Origin: Zygnema cylindricum
Taxonomy: Eukaryota > Streptophyta > Zygnematophyceae > Zygnematales > Zygnemataceae
Assembly: GCA_037447655.1 (NCBI GenBank)
Contig: JBBHKE010003147.1
Location: forward strand, 1 to 38,174
Reading direction: 5' to 3'
Length of the DNA: 38,174 nucleotides
Part shown: positions 6,120-26,429 of the stretch, one piece after another
Numbering within the stretch: position 1 is the stretch's first letter
Layout of the letters: every line of letters starts with the position of its first letter
The notes under the pieces: model-generated
Seen by the model: only the letters and a program-made list of their open reading frames with translations
The model's database searches: none
Told to the model about the DNA's origin: nothing
Made by a program: the position numbers and the translations under genes

Positions 6120-7142
6120 AACGTAGATAGATTAAAAAAAATCCGAAAAAATATACTAACGTATATTTTTCGAAACATGCTAAGACCGTATTAGAAAATG
6201 CGTGTGAATGTGGGTAAGAGACTAATGTAGGAAGAACCTTGAGAAGATCACCCGGGACATTGATATTAAAATTGAGAGACAATCTTTTGAATGCAAATCT
6301 GTACCTTGTGGAAAAAAAAAAAGCAGCATGAATGTCTGACGAAGGAAGACGAACTGACAAGTTGGCCTCACGGAGTCGACCAATATTGATCAAGTGTGTC
6401 CAGTTGGAGCGAACCCGGTGTGCTAGTAAACCATAGCGAACAACGTGAATAATAAAAGACGACCCATTAATTGTTCGATCCGTTGATAATCAGCCAAGAC
6501 AGTAGGTCTTTGATCATTATAGGCTGCGAGATTTTTCAAAATATACCTCATAGGATGATCTAAAGTTTGTAAAAAATGCAAGATACGAACCAATTCAAAA
6601 AAAAATTTGTTGCGGGGATCGGCTAATCCGAGACCTTTCCCGACCCGAGACATTTTATAGCAATCCCATCCTCCAAAAACAAGATCGATTGGACCAATCT
6701 CCAGTAAGTGATGTTTGCACACAATTCGAATGTCTTGTGGGAGGAGAGTATGCATATGCTCGTATGCAGATTTTGGTAACAAATCTGGGTATAGGGAATG
6801 CAACAGATTACAATGATGTAATTGTGCTTTCCGTGCTAACGGATCAATCTCAACCGAATAATAATATCGGGTTAATAATCCATTCTGCAAACATGAAAAG
6901 AGGGAAGTGCCCATTCCAGTGAAGATGTCCATAATCACCAATCCATACAGATGAGGTTTAAATTGGACTGGATTCCAAATAATGGGAAAAAACCCAGAAT
7001 AGTCTGTAGGAATTGGGATTTGAAAAGAGACCAGAGAGAGTGGAATTGACAAGGTTTGGTTATAGATTCGATTAAATTCACTCGTATCTATAAAGAGACA
7101 CGAGTCACCGAAAATTTCCGGTAAGTAAAAATTAACGAGCAA
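6120..7142 (-). pseudogene. Retrotransposon-borne C5 DNA methyltransferase, decayed (gypsy copy 1)
   Basis: This is a cytosine-5 methyltransferase domain resembling the DNMT3/DRM group. The open frame 6423-7142 (239 residues) has motif I DIFTGMGTS at residues 72-80, a motif II-like SVEIDP at 96-101, and motif IV region GPIDLVFGGWDCYKMSRVGKG near 150-170. A frameshift near 6420 leads into RVRSNWTHL (motif VIII, matching RLRSYWTNL in copy 2) and LPTLVSYPHSHAF. The frame is lost below about 6180, so motifs IX and X are missing. The catalytic Pro-Cys-Gln reads Asp-Cys-Tyr: the cysteine is kept and both neighbours are changed. The ENV motif reads KNL, losing the glutamate. It is therefore very likely inactive. 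It lies directly after the element's protease on the same strand. No RT follows; the element is broken here. Confidence 0.8.
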
Positions 7143-7289
7143 AATTTCTTATACTGACAATGAATGAAATAGTTCGGCCCGAACCAAATTCCTTGAAAAT
7201 GCAGGCATGGATGTGGCCGGATATGCCATAACAAGCATGGGTTTCCTAGCGAAAATTAACGGAATGCAGATTTGCGTTCGGGCAAGTTA

Positions 7290-7768
7290 GTTGGCCTATA
7301 AAAAAATGTTTGATCATGTTTGTCAACTCCACGCCTTACAGGAAATATAACGTTTTGTCCCATTAGGCATTCATAGGCACTGCATTTAGTGACCAGAGCG
7401 TGAACCGAGATCTCAATAAAATATGTGGCTGTTCCGTTCTAAAAACTGAAATTGAGCGGTTCTTTAGTGATTTATAGAACTGGCTCGGCTAATGTTAATA
7501 AGCGAGTAAAAGTTGACTGAAGCTTGTCCGGAGTTAGACCGAGCTTGTGTGCAAAGCTAGAGCCGGATATCGCCGACTTTGCACCCGTAACCATGAGGGG
7601 TAGGGATAGAGCAATACCATTGATCAACAATGATCCTTTCCCGTTATTCAAAAAACTAATGTGAGGGTCGAGAGAATTTCGCTCCTCCACGAAAATAGGT
7701 TGAATAACAACAATATTTTTGTGTAGAAGTGCTTGTAAAGCGGCAGCTGCAGCTGATTGTAGTTTCAA
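7290..7768 (-). pseudogene. Gypsy retropepsin remnant (copy 1)
   Basis: This is a degenerate aspartic protease of the methyltransferase-bearing gypsy element. The first part reads VEERNSLDPHISF and then LPLMVTGAKSAISGSSFAHKLGL, the usual place of V-D-S-G-A/T-x-x-x-x-I-S-x-x-x-A-x-x-L-G-L. The catalytic Asp is Val here, which a single base change explains. After a frame change, SVHALVTKCSAYECLMGQNVIF resembles the C-terminal half of retropepsins (the L-G-x-x-W/F region). It stands between gag (10.2-11.3 kb) and the methyltransferase (6.1-7.1 kb), all on the minus strand, giving the order Gag-PR-DNMT. A truncated copia on the opposite strand is inserted just before it. Confidence 0.6.
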
Positions 7769-7770
7769 GG

Positions 7771-9258
7771 GAGATTAAAGATGGGGGAGATATCTCAGAA
7801 CCCCCTCTTATTTCTACACACTCTGAAAAGAGAGAAGAAAAGAAGCTACAACCAGCTTTTATGGATAAGAGAGCTGAAGAAACAATGCGAAGGAATCCAA
7901 GACTTCCCTCTATTCCAGCTTCGGACTTTGAGAGAGGACGGAGGAGCTGCAAAAGACCACAAGAAAAATAAACTTCTCACAAGGGAACAAAACTATCTCA
8001 CCCAGATATGCCTTAGTCATACTCGGAGGCAGTGGACAGTGCGAGAGAGATAGATATATCAAAGCCATAAATGATGAGATGAGTTCAATTATGGAAGCAA
8101 ATACTTGGGAGGTGGTGGACTATCCTCCACACAAAAAACCTATCGGGTGCACATGGGTATGTAAATTGAAACTAAACTCAAATAATACCATTGAGAGATA
8201 TAAGGCTCGGTAGGTAGCAAAGCTGTTCACCCAAAAAAAAAAGATAGATTATGAGGAGACTTTTGTTTGGTGGTTGCGTTCCCATATGTAAGAATTATAC
8301 TTAGGTAAGCAGCAGCGGAAGACATGGAAATTCACTAGATAGATATCAAGACCGCTTTTCTCAACGGTGAACTAGATGAAGCTATCTTTATGAGACAACC
8401 AGAGAGACTTATAGAGGAAAGAGAAGAAATTAAAGTCTACACGTTCATAAATTCTTTATATGGACTGAAACATGCTCCCAGACAATGAAACAAGAAATTA
8501 GATGAGTTTCTCACCGGTTAGGGATATATTTGGTTTAGTTCTGACCATTGTATTTATATGTTTGAGGATGAGAATGGTGTGATTTTTATTGCAATTTATG
8601 TGGATTATTTGCTGGTGTTTAGTAAATCCATGGAAAAAAATCAATAAGTTAAAAAAAGATCTTAGAAGCAGATTTGACATGAAGTATTTAGTGGAGGCTA
8701 AAAATATTTTGGGGATTCAAATGGAAAGAGATAGAGGAAAGAGAATAATCATACTTACTCAGAAGAAAACTATCGGAAATATGCAAGAAAAATTTCAGAT
8801 GGAAAAGACAAACAATTTTACCACTCATATGGACTTCAAGAAAGTAAGTGATGGGAGTGTAGAAAAAAGAGTGATAATACTAGATAATCAGATGAGTCCA
8901 AAAGAGAGAGTTTATGAAGTCTATTCTATATAGACAGGTTGTAGAAAGTTTGATTGACTATATGAATTGTACTAGGTTTGACATAGCAGCAACATTTCGA
9001 GTCCTCAGTAGGAGTCTTAATGACTCTAGGAAAAAAGACTGAGAGGCAGCTAAGAGAGTCATGATATACCTGGTGAGAACTAGGGATTTATGGTTCCATT
9101 TGGGAAAAGAGCACACTGACATCACTACTTGGAGTGATGCCAGTTATAAGGATGCACCTATGAAAAGATGCACTTTTGGGTAAGTGTTGTATGTGGGGGA
9201 AAGTGCTTGTTGTTGGAGAGCGGTGGAGATATGGCTGCCTCAGCTCTTTAGAGAGGGC
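7771..9258 (+). pseudogene. Truncated Ty1/copia RT-RNase H (copia 1)
   Basis: This fragment of copia pol belongs to the same family as the copia at 21.7-24.8 kb. It opens with the linker LPSIPASDFERGRRS, shared with SIPASDFEGGKRS at 23.27 kb. It then has INDEMSSIMEANTWE, ERYKAR, DYEETF, IDIKTAFLNGELDEAIFMRQP, SLYGLKHAPR and the catalytic box YVDYLLVFSKS at 8597-8608, where the second Asp of YVDD is Tyr. The connection domain follows, then the start of RNase H (DLWFHLGKEHTDITTWSDAS). It ends after ESACCW with a small internal deletion near 9215. Stops and frameshifts are frequent. No gag, integrase or LTR is present at either end. It interrupts the minus-strand gypsy copy 1 between zinc knuckle and protease. 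Confidence 0.85.
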
Positions 9259-9295
9259 TAAACAGGGACCTAAGTCACTGTGAACCAAAAAAGTT

Positions 9296-9370
9296 GAGTC
9301 CGGTAGAACTCGAACCTCCTACAGGCAAGGCGAGGCGTAGCCGTCAACCCTTACCAGTCTGTTGTAATAG
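9296..9370 (-). repeat. Possible tRNA-derived (SINE-like) fragment
   Basis: On the minus strand, GGTTCGAGTTC (9306-9316) matches the RNA polymerase III B-box almost perfectly. It sits in what could be a T-arm (GGAGG-TTCGAGT-TCTAC, imperfect) and is followed within about 20 bases by a run of six T. A convincing A-box or cloverleaf was not found. This may be a SINE remnant or chance. Confidence 0.2.
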
Positions 9371-9401
9371 TCCGTTAGGAAACATAAGGTGTGATTGCTA
9401 T

Positions 9402-9740
9402 TTAAACAATAAGTAGAGCATTAATCCGATTAACGGAATTCTTATTGGAAGACATAGAAATCAATTGGATTTTATAGTGCGCACGAAACAAATGTACCGG
9501 ACATTTATTTTGAACGGTTAGCATTAAAAGCCGATTTTGGTCAGATGGCGCGCACCATCGTCGAGATCCCAATATAGCCACCTTGGTCATTTTCGATCGT
9601 GACATGACTTGGCGACACGTGTCTATATGTAATTGGGAAGCGAGAATCCCGAGAGCATAAGAACGAGTTTGAAAGAAACAGGCGTCCACTCCACAGCCTT
9701 GTCGTACACAAGCCGTACAAAAAGTACATCGGCCTTAGTA
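9402..9740 (-). pseudogene. Gag C-terminal region with altered zinc knuckle (gypsy copy 1)
   Basis: Reading minus, CTACVRQGCGVDAC (9719 down to 9678) has the spacing of a retroviral CCHC knuckle, C-x2-C-x4-[H]-x4-C, with the histidine position occupied by Cys. It lies between the capsid part of gag (10.2-11.3 kb) and the protease (7.3-7.8 kb) of the same strand, exactly where a nucleocapsid knuckle belongs. The rest of this stretch gives no recognisable domain. Between here and 10217 the minus strand has short open pieces but nothing I can name. Confidence is limited by the His-to-Cys change. Confidence 0.4.
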
Positions 9741-10217
9741 CCTTTCTGTACTATACAGTCTTTTGACTGGTTGGTTTTTCAGTGGATAAGGGTTGTAAGT
9801 GGGGTTTAAGATTTAGAGGATTGAGGAGGTGGCCGTGTTTTTCCCAACAAGCTTATATAAATATTAGCATCTTTGCCACTTCATTATTAATCGTCTGGTT
9901 GGGCGTTTTTAGTGATTTTTTTTTGCGGTGGACTTAGGGGAGTCCAAACTACACAAAGTTGCAATCAAATTGTCAAGCTGCTTGCTAGGGTGGCAGTTGT
10001 TTTAGTTCAAAGTGGGTTAGTGAAAAACTACCTAAAGGCTTACTCAATTCTGCTCATATGGGGGACACAGAATTGCACATTGTTTGATGGTGGAACAATC
10101 GGTTCTTTCGAGACCATTTTAGGAGGTCATGGGATTCCCACCAACATTTTTGCATTTCGTTTTTCACGGCATGTTAGGCAGCTTTGTCGAAAGTGAAATT
10201 CAAGCTATAGGTTAGAG

Positions 10218-11278
10218 TCAGGTGACTCTGGATAAATTTGTTAAAGAGATTGGAAACTGTCGTACAAATTTCTGGACAGCTTCAGCATTCGACTTTAAGT
10301 CCGGCAATGTTTCACGAAAAGCTTCCATACAAGCACGCATGGCATGGGCGGTCTCTCTTGACTTCTGTTCGAAGTTCATTAACTCAGGAACTTTGTCAAG
10401 GTTTTGCATACGGAAGTCCGTTTGCAACATTTCAAACATGATAGAGAGCGGAACCAATATAGGAATCGTCATCGTTGGTCGTGCTAGGATTCTAGCACAC
10501 GCGGATATAGCGAATCGCTGTGGTATTTCCGCAATTGCTGATGTAATAACATCACTTTGAGATAAAAGACTTCTGAAATAACGGGTTGGTAGGGAATTTC
10601 TGGTTGTCCTATAATAGCATGACTCCCAACGAAAGTTGGAGAAAACTCTGTCATCACAAGTACGGAATCATACTTGCGGGAATAAAAAGTAAGGAATGAA
10701 CCGCGAATGTAACGGCCTAAAAAAGAGAAATCGATTGTAGGTCAAATCAATCTTGGTACCGAAATGCAAGATTACGCATTTCGATATTGAATAACATTCG
10801 AAAATAAGATAAAGTCATGATGTCCTTCATTCTTGAAAAACAGAAATGAAGCCGACCCCTTCCCTCAAATGTGGAAGCCATTTCCAATAATGGAATGATT
10901 GGGGCTAAAAATGAATTTGTAATTTGTAGAAACCAAAAAGATAATGAATTGGAATCCGACCCGTGAAAGGAATCATGGTCAGATTCTTCCTCGAAAAATA
11001 AGGAAGAGACTGATGATAAAAAAGATACTAAGGTGAGAGAATATTGAACCGAAAGGGAAATTTGACCCGAGATGTTTAAAGAAAAGATGGTCCAAAAGAC
11101 TAGGTAAATCTGTTGGTCCAGATTCTGTGGGCCGAAAAAAGGCCGACGATCGGGTGGTTCCGAAAAGATAATCGAGATTAACCCAATCAGAAGGCATAAA
11201 AATGATAAAACCAAATGACGACCAGATGGCAAAATCAATCTTTACGAGATGTGTCAAATTCCAGACCACACCACTCAC
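10218..11278 (-). pseudogene. Gypsy gag, broken (methyltransferase family, copy 1)
   Basis: This is the capsid-region gag of the methyltransferase-bearing gypsy family, in several frames. The piece 10747-11238 contains SFLSSVSSLFFEEES, LHFCFSRMKDIMTLSYFRML and EMRNLAFRYQD. After a frame change it continues as RYIRGSFLTFYSRKYDSVLVMTE. The piece 10218-10472 reads PLSIMFEMLQTDFRMQNLDK and ELMNFEQKSRET. The gag at 28.7-29.6 kb has the same blocks in the same order (LSSVSSSSYLEGTEE, MQLCFSGLKDTMSLSHFRML, EMRDLAFRYQD, RYLRGTVLTLYTRKYEDVLAMTE, EFMNFERKQGET). This pairing shows it is a real gene family rather than a chance frame. LTR-like sequence lies upstream at 12.1-13.4 kb. Gag normally forms the virus-like particle. 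Confidence 0.75.
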
Positions 11279-12099
11279 TTGTCCAATCAGTTAATCAATC
11301 TTTAACAGGGCCTCGATGGCCAAATCTTTTTTGAAGCAGTATTACCAAAACCTATTACCTTGAAAACAAGGGGAGAAAGCCGAAGGGCTAGATCTATAAT
11401 GGTAAATAACTTACTATCCAAGCACTCCCAAGTGTAGATCTCAAGTGGCACAATCCACAAAAGAGCTAACCAATGCCTCCAACAGTAAGATCTATGGAAG
11501 AAATCCCACACGGGGCAAAGCAAACTCAGCCTAGGCTACTCGAGCTAAATAGCAAGCATGGAAAGTTGGACAAATGCAATGCTGAATACAAGTGGATTAA
11601 CACTAATCCACTCTTAACCGACTACCTCAACACGCGCTTGTACCCGTAAAACATCGTGATAGTTACATAACACTCTTAGCAATCTGGTGATTGCCAAAGT
11701 TGTACCGCGGTTGTTCGCTACAACTGAAGTTTTGCAGAGCTCCCAAAAAAAGATCCGCTCCACTAACTCCACTCTTTAGTGAAGTATGTCTCGATGTGTG
11801 CAAACAATGCTTCTTATAAATAACCAAAAAAATGGAAGAAACAAAAACCAAATACTTAAGTTAATGTAGTATATCGTTGGCTGAAAATTGGCCAATAAGA
11901 TAAAAACGTAAACCAACAAGCAAATGGTAATTATAAATGTAAAGCTAGTTATAGATTTTTGTAGAAATGTATCTATAAATATATATTTTTAATATTTGAA
12001 TATTTTTTTTTCTTTTTATTTTAACCAAAGAAAATTGAAATTGAAATAAAACAAAATGAATTGAAAATAACAATGGAGAATGAAACCACAATTTTCAAG
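11279..12099 (-). other. Probable untranslated leader of gypsy copy 1
   Basis: This stretch lies between the LTR (12.1-13.4 kb) and gag on the minus strand and shows no recognisable gene. The part near 11940-12060 is very AT-rich. Unlike the leader of the related copy at 27.6 kb, I see no array of TTAGGGTT motifs here. Confidence 0.4.
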
Positions 12100-13430
12100 T
12101 GTAGGAATACTAAGCCGATAGATGGCCACTAGGCCCCACAGACTATATATATTCCTTGCAGGAGTTATATTATCGAGAATAATCTGAATTTATAATTTAT
12201 AAATCAAATCAGAACATAAACAACCGAGAAAGACAACTAACATCTGAAAATGACAATATGTCCGACACTTATGAGGTTTGAGATAGCTAAACTCAAAAGA
12301 TGCGCATAAGCCAAATATGAATAAATACAAAATCACAAGAAATGGAAATAACTAAAAAATTAATCTCAACGTGCAATTTCCACAATAATTAAATTTTAGC
12401 CACAACCGGGAAAAAAAGTTTGCGTCGTGAAAACGCGGTCGAAATCCATTCAAAAAGAAGAAAAAAGTGAAAGGAAACTGTGAGGTCTTGGCCGAAGCCG
12501 TATAGATTAATATGTAAGGCTTTACAAAAGATTGATAATGTAATAAAAACTAGACGCTTCACCCAAAGGCAGAAAATCGCCTCTAGGCTGTCCAAACAAT
12601 TTTACAAATAAAAAGATGTTGCAGAAAATCCTCAATACTGAAAATAAATAATTCTTGCACTGGAAAATTTTGTGTAGGAAATTATCTAAATTGAACTAAG
12701 TAACAAAAACTACGCCTAGCGAAAACAGACCAATCTGAGTACAACGTTCTATCTAAGTATTTACGTCTAGTTTCGATTCAGCCAATAGGAGGCCGAAATC
12801 CTATGCCATACGTTACAAAATCTATAATCTACGGATTAAAACCCTTCCTATCTACATGTGAACGCGTGAACCTCCTAATGGTTCACGACTTTAAATGGTC
12901 CAATCACGTCGCTTCGTCAAAATTGACAACAGTTTCTCTGTCATTTGCGTCGACGGTCCAGATGCGAAGCTATAAAAATTGCATAATCTGTGTCGATGGC
13001 CGAGATACTACTCCACGCGAAATGATTAAAATTTGTTGTTGGCCGGGATTCAAAGGAAAAATAGTTTATACGATAAGACCGCAGGTACGGTCCATTTTAT
13101 GATCGCGGAATTTCCGAAAAATGTAAGTCGTACGGTTTACCTAAAAAAACCAAGTATTCGCCAGCGAAAATCGCAGACGATAGATGTGGTACAGCCGACG
13201 TAAAATATCAAAATTCACCATCGGCCATTATCAATGAAAATATATATCGTACGGTCGAATTCGCCGTCGACGAGAATTACGGGATTTTGAGTTGTACGGT
13301 GAATATTATCGTCGGCGTATATTATGACCAAAAATAAATATATACGGCCGACGCGTACGTTGATATAAATATGTACGATCTACGCGAACGTGAAATGTAA
13401 GTATGTACAGTCATAGATAACGCAAATAAC
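12100..13430 (-). repeat. LTR of the methyltransferase-gypsy family, diverged
   Basis: Three separate blocks match the LTR copies at 25.6-27.5 kb in the same order. Near 12110-12180, GAATACTAAGCC and GGCCACTAGG match the U5 end (GAATACTAAGCCACGAGG in reverse complement at 27.5 kb). Near 12780-12900, AGCCAATAGGAGG, AAAACCCTTCC and ACATGTGAACGCGTGAACCT match the middle. 13000-13420 is a CpG-rich repeat region at the U3 position. It stands directly after RNase H of copy 2 and directly before the leader and gag of copy 1, so it can serve both. Exact ends are uncertain; on the minus strand a GGACGGGCAG stretch at 13461-13470 could be the polypurine tract. Confidence 0.65.
13000..13420. repeat. CpG-rich degenerate repeats in U3
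   Basis: Motifs of the type CGTACGGT, GCCGACG/CGTCGGC and ATATATAC recur roughly every 40-60 bases, for example GTCGTACGGTTTACC, ATCGTACGGTCGAATTCG, GTTGTACGGTGAATATT and ACGGCCGACGCGTACG. Several are self-complementary (CGTACG, GTCGAC, CGGCCG). The position corresponds to the GCACGC repeat block in the related LTR at 26.4 kb. Confidence 0.55.
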
Positions 13431-13565
13431 ACAAATACAAATTAGTGTGGCAACTGCCCGTCCTAATATCTAAATATATTTGTTGAATGGATTTGAAGGT
13501 GTCTAAATCATCAAAAATGTCGACCTTGCCAGCTGACAATAAGGCCTCCCCTTCCACCTCTGCCC

Positions 13566-13979
13566 CTAATGCAAAAGTTCCCCCACTTTTCTAGAAAGCA
13601 AAGAGAAGGCTGTGGCTCCCCTAACCATTCCAACCCCCAAAATAAGATCCTCATCGTACCTTGCTCCTGTTGCATCAACAGAAGATGGATCGGGGTTTCT
13701 GCTAAGACCATCTGCATTACCATGGGTCTCACCGGCTCGGTGAATTATCTCAAAATCATACTCTTGCAATATCAAAGCCCATTGAGCAAGTTTCCCTGTA
13801 AGCTTACTATTCTCCATTATCCATTTCAAAGGTTGATGATTGGTGATGAGGGTGAAAGGAACGCTATAAAGATATGGTCGGAGGTGTTGGATGGCCCAAA
13901 CAGCTACGAAAAGTTCCTCATGATAGCTACTATAAAAGGTCTCCGCCTTATTGTTGCTTTGGCTTGCATAGGTCACCAT
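13566..13979 (-). pseudogene. Gypsy RNase H (methyltransferase family, copy 2)
   Basis: This open frame of 137 residues is the C-terminal part of a Ty3/gypsy RNase H, which removes RNA from the reverse-transcription hybrid. It begins VTYASQSNNKAE and continues YSSYHEELFVAVWAIQHLRPYL (with the conserved Glu), FTLITNHQPLKWIM, QWALILQEYDFEIIHRAG and NADGLSRNPDP (the last catalytic Asp). In the TDHQPL block the Asp is Asn here, which should hurt activity. RT lies immediately upstream on the same strand. Downstream there is no integrase: within about 100 bases the sequence passes into the LTR. Confidence 0.85.
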
Positions 13980-14867
13980 GTATTCGACTTATGAATCATC
14001 AAACTCAGCTAATACGACCCTTAATCCGAATCTACTCCAATCATTGTAAAGAATAAATGGTCGAAAATGGTGTGGCATACGAAGAATCAGACTTTCTCTA
14101 AGCGCATTCTTCAAAAATTAGAATGTCTTTTCTTGTTCTTCCTTCCATTGCCACTATTGATCTTTCCTTAAGAGTAAATTGAGATAGGTTGCTAAACTCT
14201 GGAACAAATTGTCTATAATAGTTAGCTAACCCCAAAAATGTGCGGGGTGAAGAAACATCTGTAGGAGTTAGCAACGCATCCTAGGCGGTGACTTTGACCA
14301 TATGTGGACCCACAGTCCCAAGGGTAACCACATGTCCCAAATACAAAATTTTGTCTACCCTGAATATACCTTTACCAGGATGACACATTAAGCCTGTCGC
14401 CCTCAGAGCATCAAATAACATTTATAAATGAAGGAGATGATCCTCCAAGTTGTTAGAAAAAATAATCACGTCGTCAATATAACACCAAGAACATTCAATC
14501 CCTCGTAAAGCTTCATCCATTTCTCGTTAGAACTTTGCGGGTGTGTTTTTCAATCCAAAAGGCATATAAAGCAACTCGTATAATCTGTTACCTGCCCAGA
14601 ATGCTATCCTCTTTCGATGCCAAGGTTCCATAGGCACTTGGTGAAATTCCTGTTTCAAATCCAAGGTAGAATATATAGTTGCTCCAACAAAGCATCAAAT
14701 ATTTCTTCAGGAGTGGGCATAGGATACTTGTCTGATATAGTGGCTGCATTTAACATTCAAAAGTCTCCACACATTCGGAAGTCTACTGTCTTCCTTGTAG
14801 AATCTTTCTTCGGAGGTAGTACAGTTGGGGAGGCAAACCCATGAAGACCAGTGCTTTCCTGTACTAA
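13980..14867 (-). pseudogene. Gypsy reverse transcriptase, main part (copy 2)
   Basis: Read across frameshifts on the minus strand, this is a gypsy RT. It shows PTVLPPKKDSTRKTVDFRMCGD, ISDKYPMPTPEEIFDALLEQ, YELLYMPFGLKNTP, and the intact catalytic box CYIDDVIIFSN with YIDD at 14470-14481. It continues with CHPGKGIFRVDKILYLGHVV, the thumb block RTFLGLANYYRQFVPEFSNL and the tether towards RNase H. At least two stops and several frame changes break it. Its N-terminal part is encoded in the preceding open frame, fused to the methyltransferase. Confidence 0.85.
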
Positions 14868-16166
14868 TCATGAATCAACCAAACATTGGACTTTCTCTTT
14901 AACAAATTCTTTCTCCGAGTGGCTCAAAGGATACTGCTTTTGGCACACTGTCGTTGATTCGTCAACAAAGTCAATCCTAAATGGTGTGCCCTTGTAAATC
15001 CCAACATCTGAATCAGCCCACGAAAACACATCCCTATTCCTTTGCAATAGATCCACAACTCTAGACTTTTGGCTCTCCTTTAACCGTTCTCTAATAATCC
15101 AATCCATTTTTCCCGGTTCTACAGCTGCAAAACTCTCCAGTGGCTTCGTCCACTGGGAAGGATCAAACTCGTCACCTCCCAACCTCTTTGCTCTATCTCC
15201 TTCTTGTAACACCCTACTAGAGACCCACAAATCATCCTCTACCTTATGCACTTGCTTCTCTTGTTCTTTTGGTCCACTCTCCTTGGTTTTTTGTTGTTGG
15301 ATTTTTTGATGAATTTTTCTATCTCTCCCCCCCCCAAGCGCTAGTGTGACCTGCATAGTCAGGTGAGCTGGAGCTTGTAAAAATGAAGTGCGATGCTGGT
15401 GAGAATAGAAAAAACCATGAGATAGTGTAAAACCAACTAACCACTGTAGAGCGTGTAAATCCATAGTTTGACCAATCGAACGGCAACGGGTGTCAACGGA
15501 GAGATTAAAAGCGGTAGTAGTATTGGTGCGAAAACCCATGACTCGTTCTCGTTCATTGATATTGGGCACATCCCATTTTTTTGTATTAGTGTCAAAGATC
15601 ATGCCAAGAGAACCTAAATGATAAGCATGGCTCCGAGGAAATGAAACCAAAGTGGGGAGTGCGTTTCTTGGTTGATCAGATTTGTTGCAGTCAAAAAATA
15701 GTTGTCGAGATGTATATGTGACAAAAGTAGTTTTATAACCTTTGTCAAAAATCTGATCGACGGTGTGGTTTGGCGGACGCTTTTGTAATCCCACGGCGGT
15801 GTTTAATAGTGGAAAAAGAGCAAGATTAGTCCAATATGAGCGAAGACGGAAAGCACGAGACCCCATCTGAGCTGCATCAAATACTAAAGGTTCCCCCAAA
15901 TAGTGAATTGTCTTTTCCCAAGCAGTAACTACCTTACTACGTTGACCCGCACCAAGGAAGACATTTTCCAACAAATATCCCAACGGCTTATGCTGATGTA
16001 ATTGCAAAAGGTTGAGGATAAAAACCATCTGATAGAATAAACGACTCCGAGTGTCACTATTTCCCTTTCCTTTCCCTGCCTGAGAATATCCTTGACAAGG
16101 CCAACCAGCTATCACCAAATCTACCCCCCAAATCTCGGATATCTTCGGAAGTAATTTAGTTAACAT
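14868..16166 (-). CDS. Cytosine-5 DNA methyltransferase fused to gypsy RT N-terminus (copy 2)
   Basis: One open frame of 432 residues joins two domains. Residues 1-252 are a C5 methyltransferase. Motif IV is GWPCQGYSQAGKGKG with the catalytic Cys at 24. Motif VI is LLENVF (67-69). Motif VIII is FRLRSYWTNL (106-115), whose form resembles DNMT3/DRM enzymes more than DNMT1. LPTLVSFPRSHAY follows, then motif IX ERERVMGF (205-212) and motif X RSIGQTMDLHALQWLVG (229-245). A lysine- and glutamine-rich linker follows. From about 370 comes the RT entry: VVDLLQRNRDVFSW, GTPFRIDF and QKQYPLSHSEKEFVKEKV. All expected catalytic residues of this half are present. Motifs I-II lie in the overlapping upstream frame 16156-16488, so one frameshift separates the enzyme into two parts. 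The annotated start is only where the open frame begins. As part of a gag-pol polyprotein it would be cleaved by the element's protease. Confidence 0.88.
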   Translation of the reverse strand: MLTKLLPKISEIWGVDLVIAGWPCQGYSQAGKGKGNSDTRSRLFYQMVFILNLLQLHQHKPLGYLLENVFLGAGQRSKVVTAWEKTIHYLGEPLVFDAAQMGSRAFRLRSYWTNLALFPLLNTAVGLQKRPPNHTVDQIFDKGYKTTFVTYTSRQLFFDCNKSDQPRNALPTLVSFPRSHAYHLGSLGMIFDTNTKKWDVPNINERERVMGFRTNTTTAFNLSVDTRCRSIGQTMDLHALQWLVGFTLSHGFFYSHQHRTSFLQAPAHLTMQVTLALGGGRDRKIHQKIQQQKTKESGPKEQEKQVHKVEDDLWVSSRVLQEGDRAKRLGGDEFDPSQWTKPLESFAAVEPGKMDWIIRERLKESQKSRVVDLLQRNRDVFSWADSDVGIYKGTPFRIDFVDESTTVCQKQYPLSHSEKEFVKEKVQCLVDS

Positions 16167-16488
16167 TTTGCGAGAGTCGATGATGAGATTGTGAAATAGT
16201 AGATACAGGTAATCGAAGAGGGTACAATCGATGAAGCTCTAATGGTTGAAATTCACTCACTTCCCGAGCTGAAGATGAAATTTCCACGGCCCAATAACTG
16301 CCAATTTGGTGGTTGTTCATCAATATAGCTCCTAAATCCGTACTAATGCTAGAAAAAAAAAAGAGACTACCGTTAACCCTGCCGGCCCTAGTGTCAAATG
16401 AACCACCTCTCAAAGAAGAGGCGTCAAAATATGCCCTTGAACAAAATGTCGAAATTTGATTCTTCTTTTGGATACATTTGTCGAACAA
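16156..16488 (-). pseudogene. N-terminal part of the copy 2 methyltransferase
   Basis: This frame of 110 residues overlaps the next by 11 bases and carries the cofactor-binding half. SLFFFSSISTDLGAIL, with a poly-T expansion inside it, sits where copy 1 has DIFTGMGTSLF and corresponds to motif I. WAVEISSSAREV matches YSVEIDPLARKA (motif II), and LELHRLYPLRLP matches NLLHSLYPDLLP. The motif I glycines are degraded. The shift into the next frame occurs near 16160. If read together, the two parts give one methyltransferase of about 330 residues. No protease was recognised between this and the gag-like frame at 16.6-17.3 kb. Confidence 0.75.
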
Positions 16489-16558
16489 GGTAATGTCTTC
16501 TCATCTATCAAAAAATTGAACACTTTTTCGTGACCTCGTCTCAAAGAAGCCGCGACCT

Positions 16559-17341
16559 CTAATCTCTGTTTGTGGGATTCCTCCCACTCAGCGGAGATGG
16601 GGAATTGCTATATAAGGGGGGCAATGTCGGTGGATTCATCCTCCGATTCAATAGAAATATTAGAAGAATGAATTGAGGAAGCATAGCTAGTGTAAACCGG
16701 GTAGCAGCTTGCCGCTGCTCCTTAGGAATCATGACGTTTCCACAAAATGAGAGAGACAAAAACGCGGCGAGCGAGTGAAGTTGACAAATCTCGAATGCAG
16801 ATTTGCTCGCTCCACGTAAATGTTGCCCATACAAAGCCCTAAGCTCGTTCCTCCCAACAGTGTCATGTAAATCTGGTGGTGGAACTGGGAACTCAAGGTG
16901 AGGTTGCCTAGAGCGGGTAGCTGGTCCATTTATAGGATAGTGAGTAGAAACAGCCGAATAAAAAGAAAGAGAATTTGAAGCCCTTCTAGTTGGTGGAAAT
17001 GGCCGAGATGCTCGTCTTCGCTCGAAAGATTCGGCTAGAGTGGGGAAATATTCAGTGGAGATCCTAATAAAAAAGGTGGACGGAAGTGGAGAAATTGGGG
17101 GAGGACTTCGGAGATTTGGAATGTCTTGTCCTCCACCTGAAAAGGAAATCGATGGCACCGATGGCATCCCCGAATCTGCAAAAATTTGGCCAGCCCTCGA
17201 GGAGGAAGAACTAGTTTCACCTATTTCCGAGGTTCCAAACATATGTCTACGAGGTGCCCTCCCACCTCCCCTTCTATTCCAACATCCATTCATATTTTTT
17301 TTTGACATTTTTAAATTCAAATAAACTAAAATATAAAACAC
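16559..17341 (-). CDS. Gag-like open frame upstream of copy 2 methyltransferase
   Basis: This is an open frame of 260 residues that I do not firmly recognise. The N-terminal half is rich in Pro, Ser and Arg (for example GGGQDIPNLRSPPPISPLPS), typical of disordered gag N-termini. The middle reads PPDLHDTVGRNELRALYGQH and then AFEICQLHSLAAFLSLSFCG. It does not align by eye with the gag of copy 1 or of the copy at 28.7 kb, so it may be a different gag, a rearranged one, or unrelated sequence. Its only support for gag identity is its place directly upstream of the methyltransferase-RT frame on the same strand. The proposed Met is not verified. Confidence 0.35.
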   Translation of the reverse strand: MFYILVYLNLKMSKKNMNGCWNRRGGGRAPRRHMFGTSEIGETSSSSSRAGQIFADSGMPSVPSISFSGGGQDIPNLRSPPPISPLPSTFFIRISTEYFPTLAESFERRRASRPFPPTRRASNSLSFYSAVSTHYPINGPATRSRQPHLEFPVPPPDLHDTVGRNELRALYGQHLRGASKSAFEICQLHSLAAFLSLSFCGNVMIPKEQRQAATRFTLAMLPQFILLIFLLNRRMNPPTLPPLYSNSPSPLSGRNPTNRD

Positions 17342-18719
17342 AAGTGCACCTTATAAAACACAACAATGCCCGATCTCTCATTTCTTTCTAACCGCGAGCT
17401 TTAATATCATCAAACTCGGTGGGTTATGCCAACAACTTTAAACAAAAAAAAGTCAACCATAACCCTAATCTTGGGTATTAACAAATTAAATCAAAATGGA
17501 AATATTTTAGACTGCAATAACATTTATAATAGTGATCTCTACAGACTTAACAATATTGCCTCCTACCCAACTCAAATAGAAACTATTCACCACAATACAT
17601 AAACATATTGCAAAAAATTAAGCAAAAAGAATAAGTAACATTCAAGCGTATTTGAATGCTAACTTAATAAGGGTTTTGACCCACCCAGAGGAGAAAACTG
17701 AGGCTACGGAAAATTTCCCGTGATCAGACTCCAAAGGTCCCAAAACCTCACAGATCTCTCCCAATAAAGGATTCGTCCAACTCCCTCTTTTAGAATCCCA
17801 ATGACTATTGCAATTAGAAAGCCCCAAGTATCCTTGTTGCCAAACAAGACACAAATTGACTAATTGGAAGGCAACTCCGTCATGATCCAAAGATGGCAAA
17901 AAAAAGGTTGGCAAAATAGCTCTTTTTTGGTAAGTTCAAGTTTTTTTGGAAGTCGACAGAACTGAGAGACAGTTCTGAGCCTTCATTTTGTAAGACAATA
18001 TTGAATTCCAACAACCTAAAGTACTTAGAACTAATACTTAACATCAAAATCTGACACTACGGTACTCATTCTATGTTTATTTCCCGAAAACGTTAGAAAT
18101 TCTAACTTATGAAAAGTCGGTTGGACAGCTTGTACTAATTTCCAACCGGCAAAAGTAATTATTACTTCAAAAAGTCAATAATTGACCTAGAATATGCAGT
18201 TTACAAAAACTTCCATATCTCTAATAATTACTATTTGATCAATCCAAATAAACATTCATTAGAAAGGTATTAAAAAGTTCTATCTACCTATAAAAAATAC
18301 AGCATGTTTAACTTAGCCGTTGAAAAGATATTGAACGTCAAAGTTTCTACAATCTGCACCAAAACACTACTTTGACCTCACATATCTTGTAGCCTAATTA
18401 TCCAAATTAAGTGAATTAAAGTTTTCTAGCTATGCTATATAGACTTTAATAGGGCCTTCTATTACAGGACAAAACAAAAATCTTTGTGATAATAACAGTC
18501 TCTCAAAAATGGCTTTTGGTGCTTTGCCGGCTCAATATTGACCAACTCCAAAATTTGTCCGAAACCACATGCAGTGAAGTAGTAATAGGGTCAAAAATCC
18601 TCCATAGGCAATAAATATAATCGCGCATGACATGGCGAGACGGGGATTCGGAATAGAGGCTAGACAGTAAGTAAGATAAAAACTCGCTGACATGGCAAGA
18701 ACCTCGTCATCGTCGAAAT
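17342..18719 (-). other. No gene recognised; 3' side of gypsy C
   Basis: This stretch follows the RNase H of the gypsy copy at 18.7-20.4 kb, where integrase and 3' LTR would be expected on the minus strand. An open piece of 90 residues at 17642-17914 has no integrase motif. I find no H-H-C-C finger or D,D-35-E pattern. The boundary with the gag-like frame below 17341 was not resolved. Confidence 0.4.
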
Positions 18720-19485
18720 CCTATCGAACTCCGTTATCCGTTATTCGAGGCAAAGGATTTCGGGAAATCCCGTCCGCAGTTTGACTAAGTAGACAAGGTC
18801 GGTGAATGATTTCAACGTCATATTCTTGTAAAATTAAAGCCCATCGACCTAGTTTCCAGGAAAACTTATCATTAGTCATCAGCCAATGCAAGGGCTGATG
18901 GTTAGTTAAGAGTGTAAATGGTTTTCATTACAAATAATGGCGGAAGTGAACGACTCCCCAAACCGCGGCTAGACACTCTCCTTCGTAGCTACTATAATTT
19001 GATTCAGCCCGGTTATTGCTTCTACTCGCGTAAGCAACTACGTATTCCTCTTCGCTCAACTCTCTTTGTGTCAAGATGGCAGCGATTTTGGGTTTTCTGA
19101 AATCTGTTAAGAGACAAAAAAAAAGTTTCTGATTAGGAGGACGGAGAATTAGAGCACTCAATAAAGCGGTTTTTAATTTTTGAAATGCGGAAATATAATC
19201 AGGACCCCATATAAACGCCACTTCTTTCTTAAGAGGGTGGTTTAACGGAGATGCGATGCTGCTGAAATTAGATAGAAACTCGCGATAATATTTAGCAAGT
19301 TTTAAAAAAGCTCGCAAAATTGTGAGGTCTTTCAGAGAAAGCAATTTACTAATTGCCTCTATCTTTGCTTCGAGAGGAGTCATCATCTCAGCCGAGATAA
19401 AATAGACGAGGTCAGGCATTCCCTCGCCTTCAAAGGTGCATTTCGTTGGATGACATTTTAATCCGATCTTTTTTAATTTAGTCAA
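18720..19485 (-). pseudogene. Gypsy RT thumb and RNase H (gypsy C)
   Basis: The open frame 18928-19485 (185 residues) covers the end of RT and start of RNase H. It reads GLKCHPTKCTFEG, ISAEMMTPLEAKIEAI, LRAFLKLAKYYREFLSNFSS, KEVAFIWGPDYISAFQKLKT, ILTQRELSEEEYVVAYASRS and NYSSYEGECLAAVWGVVHFRHYL. After a frameshift near 18925 it continues with LMTNDKFSWKLGRWALILQE, the block VEIIHR and ADGISRNPLP to about 18725. The RNase H is related to, but clearly diverged from, that of copy 2. The element is on the minus strand. No methyltransferase is present in this copy. Confidence 0.85.
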
Positions 19486-20121
19486 TGCCCATTCGATGTG
19501 AGATGCGTGCTCTTCAATAGTAGCAGAGGGAATGATGAGGTCATTTATGTAACATCTAGCAAATTTGCAATCTCCAAGGACTTAGTCAATGACTTTTTGA
19601 AATACCGCTAGGGTATTTTTCAGTCTGAATAGCATTACGGTCTATTCCCATCGGTTATCACTACCCCAAAAAGCTGTTTTATGTCGGTATTATTCCTTTA
19701 TCCCAATTTGATTGAATCCTGGACGGAGGTCAAGGATACTAAAACACTTTGCTCCGCCTACGTGATCAAATATTTCTATGGCAAAAGGTATTTGATGTTG
19801 ATCTTGAACCGTTCTAGCATTTAGTTCATGATAATCACCACACATTCGACGTGCAGTATTTTTACCATCGAAATCCTTTTTGCCAAACGTGACAATTAGA
19901 GCTACAAATGTAGAGTCTAACCGATAGATTAGGCCAGCTTCCTCTAGTTCAAAACATCGTTTATCTACCATTTCCCATTCAGTTTTTGACAGGCGTTGTT
20001 TCGGTTTAAGTATTAGGCGATCATCTTCAAGATCTATTGACATCTTATAAGCGGTTTGACAACCGAAATCGTTCATAGAAAAAAGAAAAACATCAATATT
20101 TCGTAAAACTATGTCATTCAA
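19486..20121 (-). pseudogene. Gypsy reverse transcriptase (gypsy C)
   Basis: The open frame 19690-20121 (143 residues) gives the fingers and motif A: YKMSIDLEDDRLILKPKQRL, VDKRCFELEEAGLIYRLDS, ARRMCGDYHELNARTVQDQH and CFSILDLRPGFNQIGIKE. The downstream piece, in another frame, reads FRLKNTLAVFQKVID and the catalytic box CYINDLIIPSA (19540-19551), where the first Asp of YIDD is Asn. That change and the frame breaks mean it is inactive. The RT begins only about 40 codons after the upstream piece at 20161-20397, so there is no room for a methyltransferase domain between protease region and RT here. Confidence 0.85.
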
Positions 20122-20160
20122 TAATTCTTGTTCGACCTGTATCGGATTGGTGTTGAATTT

Positions 20161-20623
20161 CTATTTAGGAGCATCGAGATTTTTGATTGTCATAGCTTCA
20201 ATGGTTTGTGCAAAGGCCAACTGCTCATTTGCGATAAGCGTTTGACCTAACTCGTAAGCTACATGTGTCTGTTTAAGGCAATTAACCGAATATATCCAGC
20301 TGCGTGTTGGAAAGGTTGCACTCCAATTATGAGTGGGTGAAATATGCAGGGAACTTGTGGACTGGACAGTTGTGTATGCTGGAATATACCAGGACATATA
20401 GGATTAAAGAAATCGTAGATAGAGATTTCGGAACTAGTAGAATTAGAGAAGGAAAAAATAAAAATTGAAATGTGGTCTCTTTGAGAGTGTGACGGAAAGA
20501 ATTACTTAGTGATGCATTCTCCCCCTCTGCTGGTTGAGACGAATGTGTTTGAGAGTGGCAACCAGCTACAAACTCAAGACATAAAACAAATGACAAAGAT
20601 TGAGGGTCCATGACACGACGCAA
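20161..20623 (-). pseudogene. Pre-RT polyprotein segment of gypsy C
   Basis: Two overlapping open pieces (20327-20623 and 20161-20397) precede RT on the minus strand. The second ends QTIEAMTIKNLDAPK and a stop, then runs in frame into NPIQVEQELLNDIVLRNID at the RT entry, so it is part of the same polyprotein. I cannot recognise a protease active site. The part beyond 20400 may not be coding. Confidence 0.4.
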
Positions 20624-20857
20624 TAAAATGCATCTTTGACGTTATGTAATGTTGAGATTTGAAATCTTTAGTTTGTAAATAGAGTAGACTTAAAATAGTT
20701 TCTAAGAAGTTGTATATAAAACTTACCTTTATTAGTGTTACAGTAGGCAAAGTACAATAGAGTGTATCATACCTCTGCAGGTTTTACGGAGTGATGTCGA
20801 GAAGTGTCACGCAGCAGATAATTAGAATCGCCAGATCAGATGGATAAAATCTGATCC

Positions 20858-22906: not shown

Positions 22907-23216
22907 TTAGTGGAGAGCAAAGGCTTTGAGGTTGTTCAGAAAAGAGGGAGACTGATTGTTAGCAAGAAAGGGAAAGTCGCAGTAACAAGAACTAAAGATG
23001 TTAGCAAAATATACTGGATGGACATGGCTAAATATAAAGAAAATGATGTTCTTTACACTGGTGTCAAATCTGATAATAAGTTGTGGCATAAGACATTATG
23101 ACAGATGAATTATGACGGTCTAAAGAAAATGGTGAATTCAGGAAAAGTTGATGGAGTTTCTCTCAGATCTCATCCTATAAAAACATGTGATGGTTGTTCA
23201 CTTGGTAAGATCTATA
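22907..23216 (+). pseudogene. Copia 2 pre-integrase and integrase zinc finger; core lost
   Basis: RGRLIVSKKGKVAVTRTKD and KIYWMD are followed by LWHKTL, a stop, then MNYDGLKKMVNSGKVDGV and CDGCSLGKIYKR. This is the H-H-C-C finger at the start of copia integrase (LWHxRL...M...CxxCxxGK). Directly after GKIYKR the sequence jumps to the linker that precedes RT (SIPASDFEGGKRS at 23270). The whole catalytic core of integrase, normally over 150 residues with D,D-35-E, is therefore deleted. Confidence 0.8.
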
Positions 23217-24290
23217 AAAGATAGAGGAGAAGCCGAGTTTTTTCGAAAGAATCTACGAGAACCATCTATTCCGGCCTCAGATTTTGAAGGGGGAAAGAGA
23301 AGTAGCAAAAGACTGCAAGAAATACAGCTTAATAACAAGGTAACTAAAGAATTTCATCAAGATGAATCCCAAACTTATGGAGAGGCGATGACTTGTCGAG
23401 AAAGAAACAGGTGGAAAACAGTCATCAATGAGGAGATGGCCTCAATTATGGCAGCCGATACTTGGGAGCTGGTGCATTGTCCACCTAATTGAAAACTAAT
23501 CGGTTGTAAGTGGGTTTTCAAATTAAAACTCAACCCAGATAACACAATCGAGCGCTACAAGGCTCGATTAGTGGCAAAGGGGTTTACACAAAAGCAGGGA
23601 ATTGACTACGAAGAAACCTTTGCCCCGGTGGTCAGATTTCCCTCCGTCCGCATACTTATCAACCTAGCAACAGGGGAAGACATAGAAGTACACCAGATAG
23701 ACATTAAGACAGCCATTTGCATGGAAAATTGGAACAGGAGATCTTCATGCGACAACCCGTGATGTTTGAGGAGGAAGAAAAGGAGAGTAAGGTATGCCGG
23801 CTGATTAAATCTCTTTATGGTTTGAAACAGGCACCTCGACCGTGGAATAAGAAGCTTGATGAGTTTCTTATCGGTCTGGGATATATTCGGATCAGCTCAG
23901 ATCACTCAATCTATGTTTTTCGAAGATGAAGAAGGTTTTATATTTATTGCAATTTATGTTGATGATTTGCTTGTTTTAAGTAAATCAATGGAAAAAATTT
24001 ATAAACTGAAAGTCGATCTTAAGGGGAGATTTGAAATGAAAGATATAGGGGAAGCAAAATATGGAGTTCAAGTAGAGAGAGACCGAAAAAGAAAGATTAT
24101 AAAATTGACTCAAAAAAAAACAACATGGAACATGCTTGAAAAATTTCAGATGGATAAAGCTAATAGTTGTACAACTCCAATGGAGTTGAAGAAGGGAAGT
24201 GAGGGGAGTGAGGAAGAAAGAGTCATAGTCTTAGACGGGGAATTATCTCATGAAGAACAGAAGTTCATGCAGACTATCTTTACAGGCAAG
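23217..24290 (+). pseudogene. Copia 2 reverse transcriptase
   Basis: A well-recognisable copia RT. It reads WKTVINEEMASIMAADTWEL, GCKWVFKLKLNPDNTIERYK, ARLVAKGFTQKQGIDYEETF, APVVRF and IEVHQIDIKTA. A frameshift at about 23720 removes the usual FLNG. It resumes EQEIFMRQPVMFEEEE, LIKSLYGLKQAPRPWNKKLD and FIAIYVDDLLVLSKS, with catalytic YVDD intact at 23955-23966. The connection domain follows with MKDIGEAKYGVQVERDRKRK and CTTPMELKKGSEG. Frame changes occur near 23720, 23920 and 24290. The best-preserved copia pol in the window; it is closely related to the fragment at 7.77-9.26 kb. Confidence 0.9.
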
Positions 24291-24797
24291 TAGTGGGAAG
24301 TCTAATCTATTTTATGAATTGTACACGGCTGGATTTAGCTGCAGCTGTAGGAGTGCTGAGTAGAAGTCTAATTGCTCCCACTAAGAGAGATTGGGAGGCA
24401 GCTAAGAGAGTCCTTAGATATACTTGATAGGAACTGGGGATTTATGGTTGCATTTGGGTGGGGAGAATACTGACATCACTATTTGGAGAGATGCCAGTTA
24501 TGGTGATGCTCCGATTAGGAGATGCACTACTGGATATGTATTATATATGGGTGATGGAGCTTGCTGTTGGAGTAGCAAACAACAAAAAATTATTGCTCAG
24601 TCCACCATGGAGGCTGAGTATATGGCCTCTTGCTCTGCTGTAAAAGAATTGATGTGGGTCAAGTCTTTGCTTGGTGAGCTTGGTCACCTTAATAGTGGTG
24701 TGCAAAAAAATATTTTGTGATAATCACGCAGCAATCGCTATTTCTGCCAATCATAAACATCATTTTAAAGCCAAACACATGGACATCAGACTCAATC
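24291..24797 (+). pseudogene. Copia 2 RNase H, 3' truncated
   Basis: The sequence reads RQVVGSLIYFMNCTRLDLAA, AAKRVLRYT, a stop, then IGTGDLWLHLGGENTDITIW, RRCTTGYVLYMGDGACCWSS, STMEAEYMASCSAVKELMW and CDNHAAIAISANHKHH. It ends HMDIRLNR at 24800, where the typical HF-IRE continuation is missing. At that point the sequence changes abruptly into the middle of an LTR of the gypsy family on the other strand, so the copia 3' end and LTR have been lost. The Asp/Glu/Asp set of RNase H appears partly kept (DAS reads RDAS; TMEAEY; CDN). Confidence 0.9.
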
Positions 24798-25065
24798 GGT
24801 GAGAGAGAGCAAGAGAAAAGCTCAGCCGTCAAGATAAAATTCTTGTCCGAAATATATAATTCTTTAAGTTTAAGAATTAGCCTAAGTATGAGCTACGCTA
24901 AGCCTAAGCGAAACTATCCTACCTCTAGCCTACTTTACATGTATGAAACTAATTAAGATGTTTGCCAATAGGCGGACAACATCGTCTACGATACGCTGAA
25001 TTAAATTTACCGTCCGAGGGTAAAAACCCTCCAAAACTACATGTGCGCGCGAACCTACAAGGAAA
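24798..25065 (-). repeat. Partial LTR of the methyltransferase-gypsy family
   Basis: It matches 26047-26300 base for base in many blocks: GGTGAGAGAGAGCAAGA, AAGCTCAGCCG, GAGCTACGCTA, GCCAATAGGC, ACATCGTCTAC, CGTCCGAGGGTAAAAACCCT and ACATGTGCGCGCGAACCTAC. Orientation is the same as the left arm at 25.6-26.4 kb. It starts abruptly where copia 2 ends. Confidence 0.8.
25016..25031. repeat. Conserved LTR palindrome, GAGGGT-4-ACCCTC
   Basis: A perfect 6-bp inverted repeat with a 4-base A loop. It recurs unchanged at 26269-26284 and, in reverse orientation with a T loop, at 26885-26900, inside otherwise diverged LTR copies. Confidence 0.85.
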
Positions 25066-25619
25066 TGTTTGATATTTTTTTCCAACGTCTTAGCTCTTCC
25101 TACTTGGTTTTTAATATCGAGGGAAAATAGAGGGTCAAACTATGTGTACATCCGTCATGTCTAACCTAACGACTAACGATTTACGTGGATTGTTTGGGAA
25201 GGTTATGGTTTTTTTATTGATATGCCGAAATTGCTTCGACATAACCATCCTTCAGACCTTCGATTATTTATCGTCCTCCGGAAAGCTCGTTCAACTCCCA
25301 AATTAAAAGAGTTGACAAAGACACGCGATAAAATTTTGCACAAATTTCGCAATGTTGTAGTAAATTACGTTTTTTCATAGAAAATGACAATAGTGATGTT
25401 GGTCTACCTCGGTCGTGCATGAGAGACAAGCAAGCGAACATGGATCAAAACCAGCAAAGTCATGCTCACAAACATATACAACAATAAAAATAAATATAAA
25501 AAGTCAAAAAATATATACACCATGAGAAAGAATAAAAGTGAAAATGACCCAAAAAGAAATGAGGAAGAATACTCTCCTAAAGTGAAGTGGAAAAAGAGAA
25601 GGGGGAGAATACTCTCCTA
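25066..25619. other. No gene recognised between LTR fragments
   Basis: No recognisable coding sequence. It may hold the rest of the first LTR fragment (U3 side) and leader sequence of the next. It ends with a 40-bp direct repeat. Confidence 0.4.
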
Positions 25620-25630
25620 GAGTGAGTGGA
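25561..25630. repeat. 40-bp direct repeat
   Basis: GAAGAATACTCTCCTAAAGTGA at 25564 recurs as GGAGAATACTCTCCTAGAGTGA at 25604. Both are followed by GTGG, and 40 bases separate the two. They lie at the U5 end of the left LTR arm. Confidence 0.7.
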
Positions 25631-26425: not shown

Positions 26426-26429
26426 AAAA

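Follow-up and report, generated by a model that had tools for sequence, protein, structure and literature searches.

The DNA methyltransferase (DNMT) found in the window, that is, the whole 38,174-nucleotide stretch of Zygnema cylindricum DNA analysed here (contig C2362), belongs to a decayed copy of a Ty3/gypsy retrotransposon carrying a DNMT3-type enzyme, and a probability of about 0.97 is assigned to this reading. The copy (element 1) is real but dead and broken, and it represents a real methyltransferase-carrying retrotransposon with numerous related copies in the genome, a few of which look young. Elements of this kind have already been described in a green alga: KnitGypsy-Dnmt3 of Klebsormidium nitens, with DIRS-like repeats and purifying selection, is reported in the accessible text of de Mendoza et al. 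(2018, PMC5890265). The precedent named in the preliminary description of this DNA is real, and the present families are a further member.

That a parasite should carry the very type of enzyme by which it is silenced is puzzling, and the role of this enzyme was left open in the accessible text of the 2018 report (PMC5890265). The present genome holds a numerous, partly young set in two diverged families, one (family A) with an unusual catalytic motif and the other (family B) with the enzyme behind a conserved stop; packaging of the DNMT with the polymerase, marking of the cDNA and catalysis by the Glu-Cys-Gln (ECQ) form are now testable.

Element 1 and its surroundings in the window

The window is a nest of broken elements, with the following features (window positions; L-numbers denote stretches fetched from the same genome).

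17958 to 18632, minus strand: 5' terminal repeat (A1) of element 1, family B (90.7% to L036 1-677, and boundary sequence)
16608 to 16610, minus strand: UAG stop between the protease end and the DNMT, in frame with the 456-codon frame (sequence reading)
13480 to 16812, minus strand: body of element 1, a family B DNMT-gypsy element truncated before the integrase (93.5% DNA identity to L036 over 3393 bp)
16126 to 16365, minus strand: front of the DNMT with the motif I region, out of the 456-codon frame and with a damaged motif I (49% to family B DNMT by tblastn; sequence reading)
14868 to 16238, minus strand: 456-codon frame with DNMT rear part, linker and reverse transcriptase (RT) entry (ORF list, Pfam, alignment to database protein P0001)
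15435 to 16124, minus strand: DNMT motifs IV (GWPCQG), VI (ENV), VIII (RLR) and IX-X (ERVMGF ... GQTMD) (PF00145; 52% to family B DNMT)
14230 to 14993, minus strand: Ty3/gypsy RT (YIDD) with stops and a frame change near 14690 (alignment to P0001, domain matches)
13743 to 14162, minus strand: RNase H of element 1 (PF17917, 1e-20 for 13566-13988; 71% to family B RNase H)
6165 to 13149, minus strand: family A copy with 5' repeat region, gag, protease and DNMT, interrupted by a Copia element (83-85% to L031/L032/L034/L040; domain matches)
10887 to 10111, minus strand: gag of that copy (domain match)
7723 to 7271, minus strand: protease of that copy (domain match)
6968 to 6190, minus strand: DNMT of that copy, motif IV decayed to WDCYK (domain match and reading)
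18633 to 20653, minus strand: family A fragment with DNMT end, RT and RNase H, the site of element 1 (85-86% to L031/L032/L034/L040; domain matches)
20022 to 19243, minus strand: RT of that fragment (domain match)
19209 to 18796, minus strand: RNase H of that fragment (domain match)
24793 to 29624, plus strand: third family A piece, terminal-repeat sequence and gag (29036-29625) (mostly 80-88% to L042/L027/L033; gag matches)

The preliminary description had proposed that the motifs of a cytosine DNMT share one 432-residue frame with an RT entry, and this was borne out. The frame extends from stop to stop over 456 codons (432 residues when counted from the first Met) and comprises the rear two thirds of a C5 methyltransferase, a linker and the start of a Ty3/gypsy RT. 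It matches the Pfam DNA_methylase family (PF00145) at 4e-12 over residues 35-135, the motifs GWPCQG, ENV, FRLRSYW and ERVMGF can be read in it directly, and the RT entry VVDLLQRNRDVFSW stands in the same frame as these motifs. The continuation on the same strand into gypsy RT (YIDD) and RNase H, which had also been claimed, is present but broken, the RT containing in-frame stops and a frame shift near 14690. Accordingly, the fusion protein P0001 aligns with 16124-14688 at 49% and then, one frame over, with 14694-14449 (including YIDD) at 73%. The DNMT front lies in a frame other than the 456-codon one, with its motif I damaged, and the integrase is missing; given these defects, the window copy cannot make a working enzyme. 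The DNMT-RT frame does lie where it had first been placed, but element 1 reaches wider, from 18632 in its 5' repeat down to 13480, and its 3' end has been lost. The 5' repeat starts TGTCATGCGCG and abuts the family A fragment at 18632/18633. A host DNMT gene is ruled out for this copy because the protein runs on into RT.

No matches in the window were obtained with Rfam (gathering threshold) or in a tRNA scan. The family A pieces ending at 6165 and 20649 are cut at almost identical element positions (L031 4300 and 4213) with their order swapped, possibly owing to a rearrangement or an assembly join. A 779-bp inverted repeat (25642-26420 and 27526-26749, 90% identical) matches, in either orientation, the outer portions of family A stretches. 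Two Copia-like elements of about 69% DNA identity are present at 7708-9318 and 23181-24640 (both plus strand), the first inside the family A copy. The gypsy element at 30286-38050 (plus strand) is without a DNMT and has plain 970-bp repeats (89.4% identical) with no B repeat of the type described below, a single case.

Related copies, the two families and their ends

The genome (352,776,454 bases in 2689 contigs) contains at least 123 loci past the Pfam cut-off for PF00145, all of the best 123 of 782 first-look candidates that were scored having passed. Twenty of the 123 stretches were fetched around their matches, a choice biased towards long open frames, and in 19 of them an RT lies downstream of the DNMT on the same strand; only protease and DNMT were found on the DNMT strand of L043. 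Element 1 has a sister, L036, which is 93.5% identical over 3393 bp, begins with the same residues as the 456-codon frame and is open without a stop through the DNMT rear part, RT and RNase H. A genome search with the 901-residue DNMT-RT-RNase H frame of L036, in which 50 of 5262 candidates were scored, gave 56 rows; as the best-scoring ones, these too are a choice that favours complete copies. Forty-seven of these run from DNMT into RT (start at or before residue 275 and end at or after 500 of the query), including two that start only at residue 270, the DNMT edge. The same join occurs in P0001, an independent database protein of 685 residues labelled RT/C5 methylase by its JGI source. In a window so full of broken, nested elements a DNMT pseudogene and a gypsy element might have come to lie side by side by chance, and whether the two are ever joined elsewhere had been proposed as the test; such a chance is negligible, because the join recurs in P0001, L036, 19 of the 20 stretches and 47 of the 56 rows, and a DNMT within a Ty3/gypsy polyprotein, in frame with RT, is a recurrent arrangement in this genome. 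One family B DNMT-RT match (C961, 71092-73410, minus strand) lies in an open frame of 5743 codons, far beyond the length expected of one element. Clusters of PPR repeat genes were also observed on C185, C717 and C2152, with one frame of 2240 codons on C185.

Two families were distinguished, with 15 of the 20 fetched stretches in family A (L025 type) and five in family B (L028, L029, L036, L038 and L039), to which element 1 also belongs. The fullest copy, L025, encodes Gag, protease, DNMT, RT, RNase H, integrase and a PHD finger in a single frame of 2,395 codons with identical 931-bp repeats on both sides. DNMT (2e-11), RT, RNase H, integrase (H2C2 and rve) and PHD (1.5e-9) were recognized by Pfam, and the Gag (zinc knuckles) and protease were assigned by eye and by position. 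L028 and L029 run DNMT-RT-RNase H-integrase over 1,525 and 1,520 codons; the PHD match of L028 (2.4e-4) is below the Pfam cut-off, and none was found by Pfam in L029. The order RT-RNase H-integrase with an rve integrase (PF00665) was found in L025, L028 and L029, the window copy itself having RT and RNase H only. Pfam detected neither a PWWP nor any other regulatory domain fused to the DNMT.

In family B, protease and DNMT lie in one frame with a TAG between them in all ten distinct places where the border is readable (C633, C1042, C412, C1374, C507, C544, C2216, C1662, C1100 and window 16610-16608); the border was not found in L023. As some of the UAG-bearing copies have near-identical DNMTs (L017/L018 and L024/L038), the independent cases are fewer than ten. 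The UAG is nevertheless common to the L028 and L036 subfamilies, the DNMT proteins of which are only about half identical. In L019, of element 1's subfamily (92% DNA identity to the window), a protease frame of 351 codons, the TAG and a DNMT frame of 326 codons all stand in one frame; its motif I (SLFSGIST) is normal and the frame holds from motif I to VIII, the DNMT breaking later. The protease of L028 contains a further stop and that of L029 none. Leaky stops of the TMV type have CAR-YYA behind the UAG. The sequence following the family B TAG is CAATTC in eight places, CAATTG in L036 and TAATTC in L038, and would thus fit this context in part.

The ends were analysed in three family A copies together with the flanking DNA. 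Read as two simple long terminal repeats, these ends showed no target duplication, so this reading was replaced by one of split repeats, A1 on one side and B1-A2-B2 on the other. The A1/A2 repeats have 0 mismatches in 931, 5 in 1388 and 6 in 1475 aligned bases (the last with one gap in addition). A2 is framed by a shorter repeat B1/B2, which self-comparison of two copies showed to be 242-243 bp (99.6%) and 190 bp (99.5%) long, and cross-matching found the same framing in the third copy. The outer ends, TGTCATGCCG at A1 and GCACGACA after B2, are of the TG..CA type, and all three copies are flanked by 4-bp target duplications (TTGG, AAGG and CCCT). The family A arrangement is therefore A-coding-B-A-B with a 4-bp target duplication, and the near-identical repeats (0, 5 and 6 mismatches) together with these duplications point to recent movement. 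At the inner B1-A2 border C1344 and C829 have GACA-GC-TGTC, which may be read as resembling joined element ends. Family B shares the TGTCATGC start of family A, in L036 behind GACAGCT, and its ends appear in part to follow the same DIRS-like arrangement; in C1374, taken with 2.5-kb flanks, no matching pair of outer repeats was obtained.

Enzyme type, relatives and selection

A profile built from element 1 and 11 relatives was compared with PDB chains. The best match was DNMT3A (1.8e-22), followed by DNMT3C and DNMT3B. Weaker matches were 4onj (2.4e-12) and 4onq (8e-11), which we take to be plant-type chains (DRM), HaeIII (1.9e-10), chains named DRM2 (2.2e-10) and HhaI, and DNMT2 chains scored far weaker than DNMT3A and DNMT3B. 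Motifs I, IV, VI, VIII and X stand in linear order in P0081 and P0082, not in the rearranged order of the DRM type. The enzyme is thus predicted to be an unrearranged DNMT3-type one. With regard to the DNMT3/DRM-type origin first suggested, the DNMT3 half holds and the DRM half is not favoured, given the weaker profile scores and the motif order. Like DNMT3A and DNMT3B, its best solved relatives with the same linear order, the element enzyme is of the DNMT3 kind, but it has no PWWP or regulatory domain by Pfam and carries PCQ or ECQ where DNMT3A has PCN. When viral contigs were scanned for a possible phage or prokaryotic origin, 16 loci matched, at 25-51% identity and over short stretches.

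To our knowledge, the proline of motif IV is nearly universal in C5 methyltransferases. Family B has the ordinary GWPCQ, whereas ECQ was found in all 15 fetched family A places, 13 with GWECQ, one with GSECQ (C82, L021/L037) and one with ECQ behind a stop (C2678, L020/L044). The family A stretches showing it are L021, L025-L027, L030-L035, L037 and L040-L044, in a family that is partly young and under selection. Among 83 proteins (P0001-P0083, which take in P0081-P0083 of this genome) there were 55 GWPCQ (including two family B frames from this genome), six GWECQ, one each of GFECQ, GWECS, GWSCQ and GWPCY, and 18 unreadable. With the P and E states of 38 and 11 tree rows, respectively, at least three changes are needed on the tree. 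It was also observed that P0058, P0061, P0066, P0069 and P0070 have EHV instead of ENV in motif VI.

Among the best 8000 candidates scored in a profile search of databases, 66 proteins were recovered, none of them named Klebsormidium. Gag zinc knuckle, protease and DNMT occur in P0041 and P0043 of Marchantia polymorpha, and a protease remnant and DNMT in P0039 of Calypogeia fissa. Closterium sp. NIES-53 has DNMT-RT in P0074 and Gag, protease and DNMT in P0077 (Gag and protease in these liverwort and Closterium proteins being assigned by motif reading). A second polyprotein position of the same DNMT clade, between RNase H and integrase, is suggested by P0064 and P0079 (RNase H-DNMT) and by P0051 and P0053-P0056 (integrase domains behind the DNMT, the start of P0053 being read as an RNase H tail and a PHD match lying on the integrase protein in P0054-P0056). 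This order was pieced together from different proteins, no single one showing RNase H, DNMT and integrase by Pfam. These gypsy proteins thus resemble the present families in their DNMT clade and, in P0054-P0056, in the PHD on the integrase, and differ in that the DNMT here lies between protease and RT.

A quick tree was built from 53 rows, most of those shorter than 285 residues being left out; it was rooted on a single DNMT3A, gives SH-aLRT values only and contains several long branches. These seven proteins fall in one group (97), which also takes in two unlabelled rows, and element 1 groups with P0001 and family B (97). The seven alone as a group were not rejected (p-AU 0.365). The tree fits one move of the DNMT domain within the polyprotein; as it is without plant host DNMT3 genes, a single capture is not shown by it.

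Selection was estimated from copies open in the DNMT only (6 of 14 in family A and 6 of 8 in family B, L026 being left out as near-identical to L025). In family A, dS was saturated in 11 of 15 pairs, with dN of 0.12-0.18, and the other four gave dN/dS of 0.18-0.42; in family B, 13 of 15 pairs gave 0.12-0.39 and two were identical. For RT, dN/dS was 0.02-0.04 in three usable family A pairs and 0.11 in one family B pair. These per-family figures replace those obtained with other cut-offs and mixed families (DNMT 0.13-0.42, RT 0.02-0.19). The DNMT has therefore been under purifying selection and been kept through element replication, though less strictly than RT.

Possible roles of the methyltransferase

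The observed position of the DNMT in family B, first behind a conserved UAG, means that DNMT-RT-RNase H-integrase-PHD would need occasional readthrough; made only in this way, the enzyme might be packed with the polymerase. It could then methylate the element's own double-stranded cDNA before or at integration, targeting CG if it acts as DNMT3A and SymbioDIRS-Dnmt3 do, the latter an enzyme with de novo CG activity in yeast according to the accessible text of PMC5890265. The incoming DNA would come to resemble methylated host DNA, and the PHD finger on the integrase might read the target chromatin and guide integration; PHD fingers are described on Ginger1 transposases in the accessible text of PMC2836005. 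Such self-methylation with chromatin reading at the target is put forward tentatively, at slightly less than even odds, and the element's identity together with the mechanism (readthrough, cDNA methylation, PHD targeting) is rated somewhat more probable than not as a whole. It would accord with the DNMT and RT in one frame, the DNMT3 type, purifying selection, recent movement, the conserved UAG and the SymbioDIRS activity. Against it stand the dead window copy and its sister L036, which has the same frame break and a likewise damaged motif I; either a sub-lineage lacking an intact DNMT seems to have multiplied, or both copies stem from one segmental duplication. Also against it are the Glu in place of the motif IV Pro in family A, the DNMT being less constrained than RT, and the yeast assay of the KnitGypsy-Dnmt3 domain, which showed no methylation and is called inconclusive by its authors (PMC5890265, accessible text). 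A further point against it concerns C-T differences, which were commoner at CG and CHG than at CHH in all 16 copy pairs listed (identity 0.75-0.985 only), e.g., 0.053, 0.034 and 0.025 at CG, CHG and CHH for L028/L029 and 0.036, 0.064 and 0.030 for L036/window. An excess at CHG as well as CG is unexpected from a CG enzyme alone, and plant-type methylation beyond CG is likely to be acting on the copies.

The same excess suggests that copies are methylated plant-style anyway, as might be expected if the DNMT acted instead on the host, by binding or methylating host DNA or competing with the host's own methyltransferases, and so enabled the element to evade silencing. The altered motif IV, ECQ in all 15 family A places, may even make the family A enzyme a binding competitor, and the low dN across subfamilies indicates that a function has been kept, which may be other than ordinary catalysis. 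The ordinary GWPCQ of family B and of 55 of the 83 proteins, and the motifs I, VI, VIII and X of P0081 and P0082, favour catalysis, and a host-directed role is considered unlikely, at perhaps one chance in four.

Slightly less probable still is that the DNMT of element 1's lineage is a lost passenger, its copies multiplying with enzymes from other elements. The window copy and L036 share a break within the frame and a stop, motif I is damaged in both, and stops lie inside most rows of the L036-frame search. Such a loss is argued against by L019, a member of that subfamily with a normal motif I and a frame intact to motif VIII, as well as by the dN/dS of 0.12-0.39 in open family B copies and the two frames of 1,520-1,525 codons running from DNMT to integrase. 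Modification of RNA or of an RNA-DNA hybrid during reverse transcription would suit the position beside RT, and RNA methylation was raised by de Mendoza and colleagues for a LINE type (PMC5890265, accessible text); it is improbable, the closest solved relatives, DNMT3A and DNMT3B, being DNA enzymes and the DNMT2 chains scoring far weaker.

Self-methylation of new cDNA would be the likeliest role. The two nearest known retrotransposon systems are compared below as given in the accessible text of PMC5890265. The present elements share with KnitGypsy-Dnmt3 an intronless, unrearranged DNMT3-type enzyme in Ty3/gypsy Pol, purifying selection and the DIRS-type repeat arrangement, A-coding-B-A-B, which that paper also gives for SymbioDIRS. 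They differ in their host, and are characterised here by the order Gag-protease-DNMT-RT-RNase H-integrase-PHD, the UAG before the DNMT (family B), ECQ (family A) and TG..CA ends with 4-bp duplications; the main text of PMC5890265 mentions neither PHD nor protease, and KnitGypsy-Dnmt3 may still share these features. SymbioDIRS-Dnmt3 of Symbiodinium likewise has a DNMT3 in retrotransposon Pol, A-coding-B-A-B repeats and two coexisting domain orders, but is a tyrosine recombinase element, whereas an rve integrase (PF00665) and 4-bp target duplications are found here. DNMT3s in retrotransposons of streptophytes and dinoflagellates, the LTR type being called Copia, are also mentioned in the accessible text of PMC12344493. 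It is conceivable, if rather doubtful, that one gypsy-carried DNMT3 lineage extends across charophyte algae and liverworts (Closterium, Marchantia, Calypogeia), part of it with the Glu-Cys-Gln motif. It would have moved once in the polyprotein (protease-DNMT-RT against RNase H-DNMT-integrase) and be tied to split-repeat (A-coding-B-A-B) replication, not to integrase class, with methylation serving a step special to that replication.

In the literature searched, most subscription journals lying outside it, no description of liverwort DNMT-gypsy elements, their PHD or their UAG was recognised. The liverwort Gag-protease-DNMT proteins extend DNMT-carrying gypsy elements to land plants, in contrast to a 2019 paper (PMC6338049), according to whose accessible text land plants such as tracheophytes lack methylases borne by transposons.
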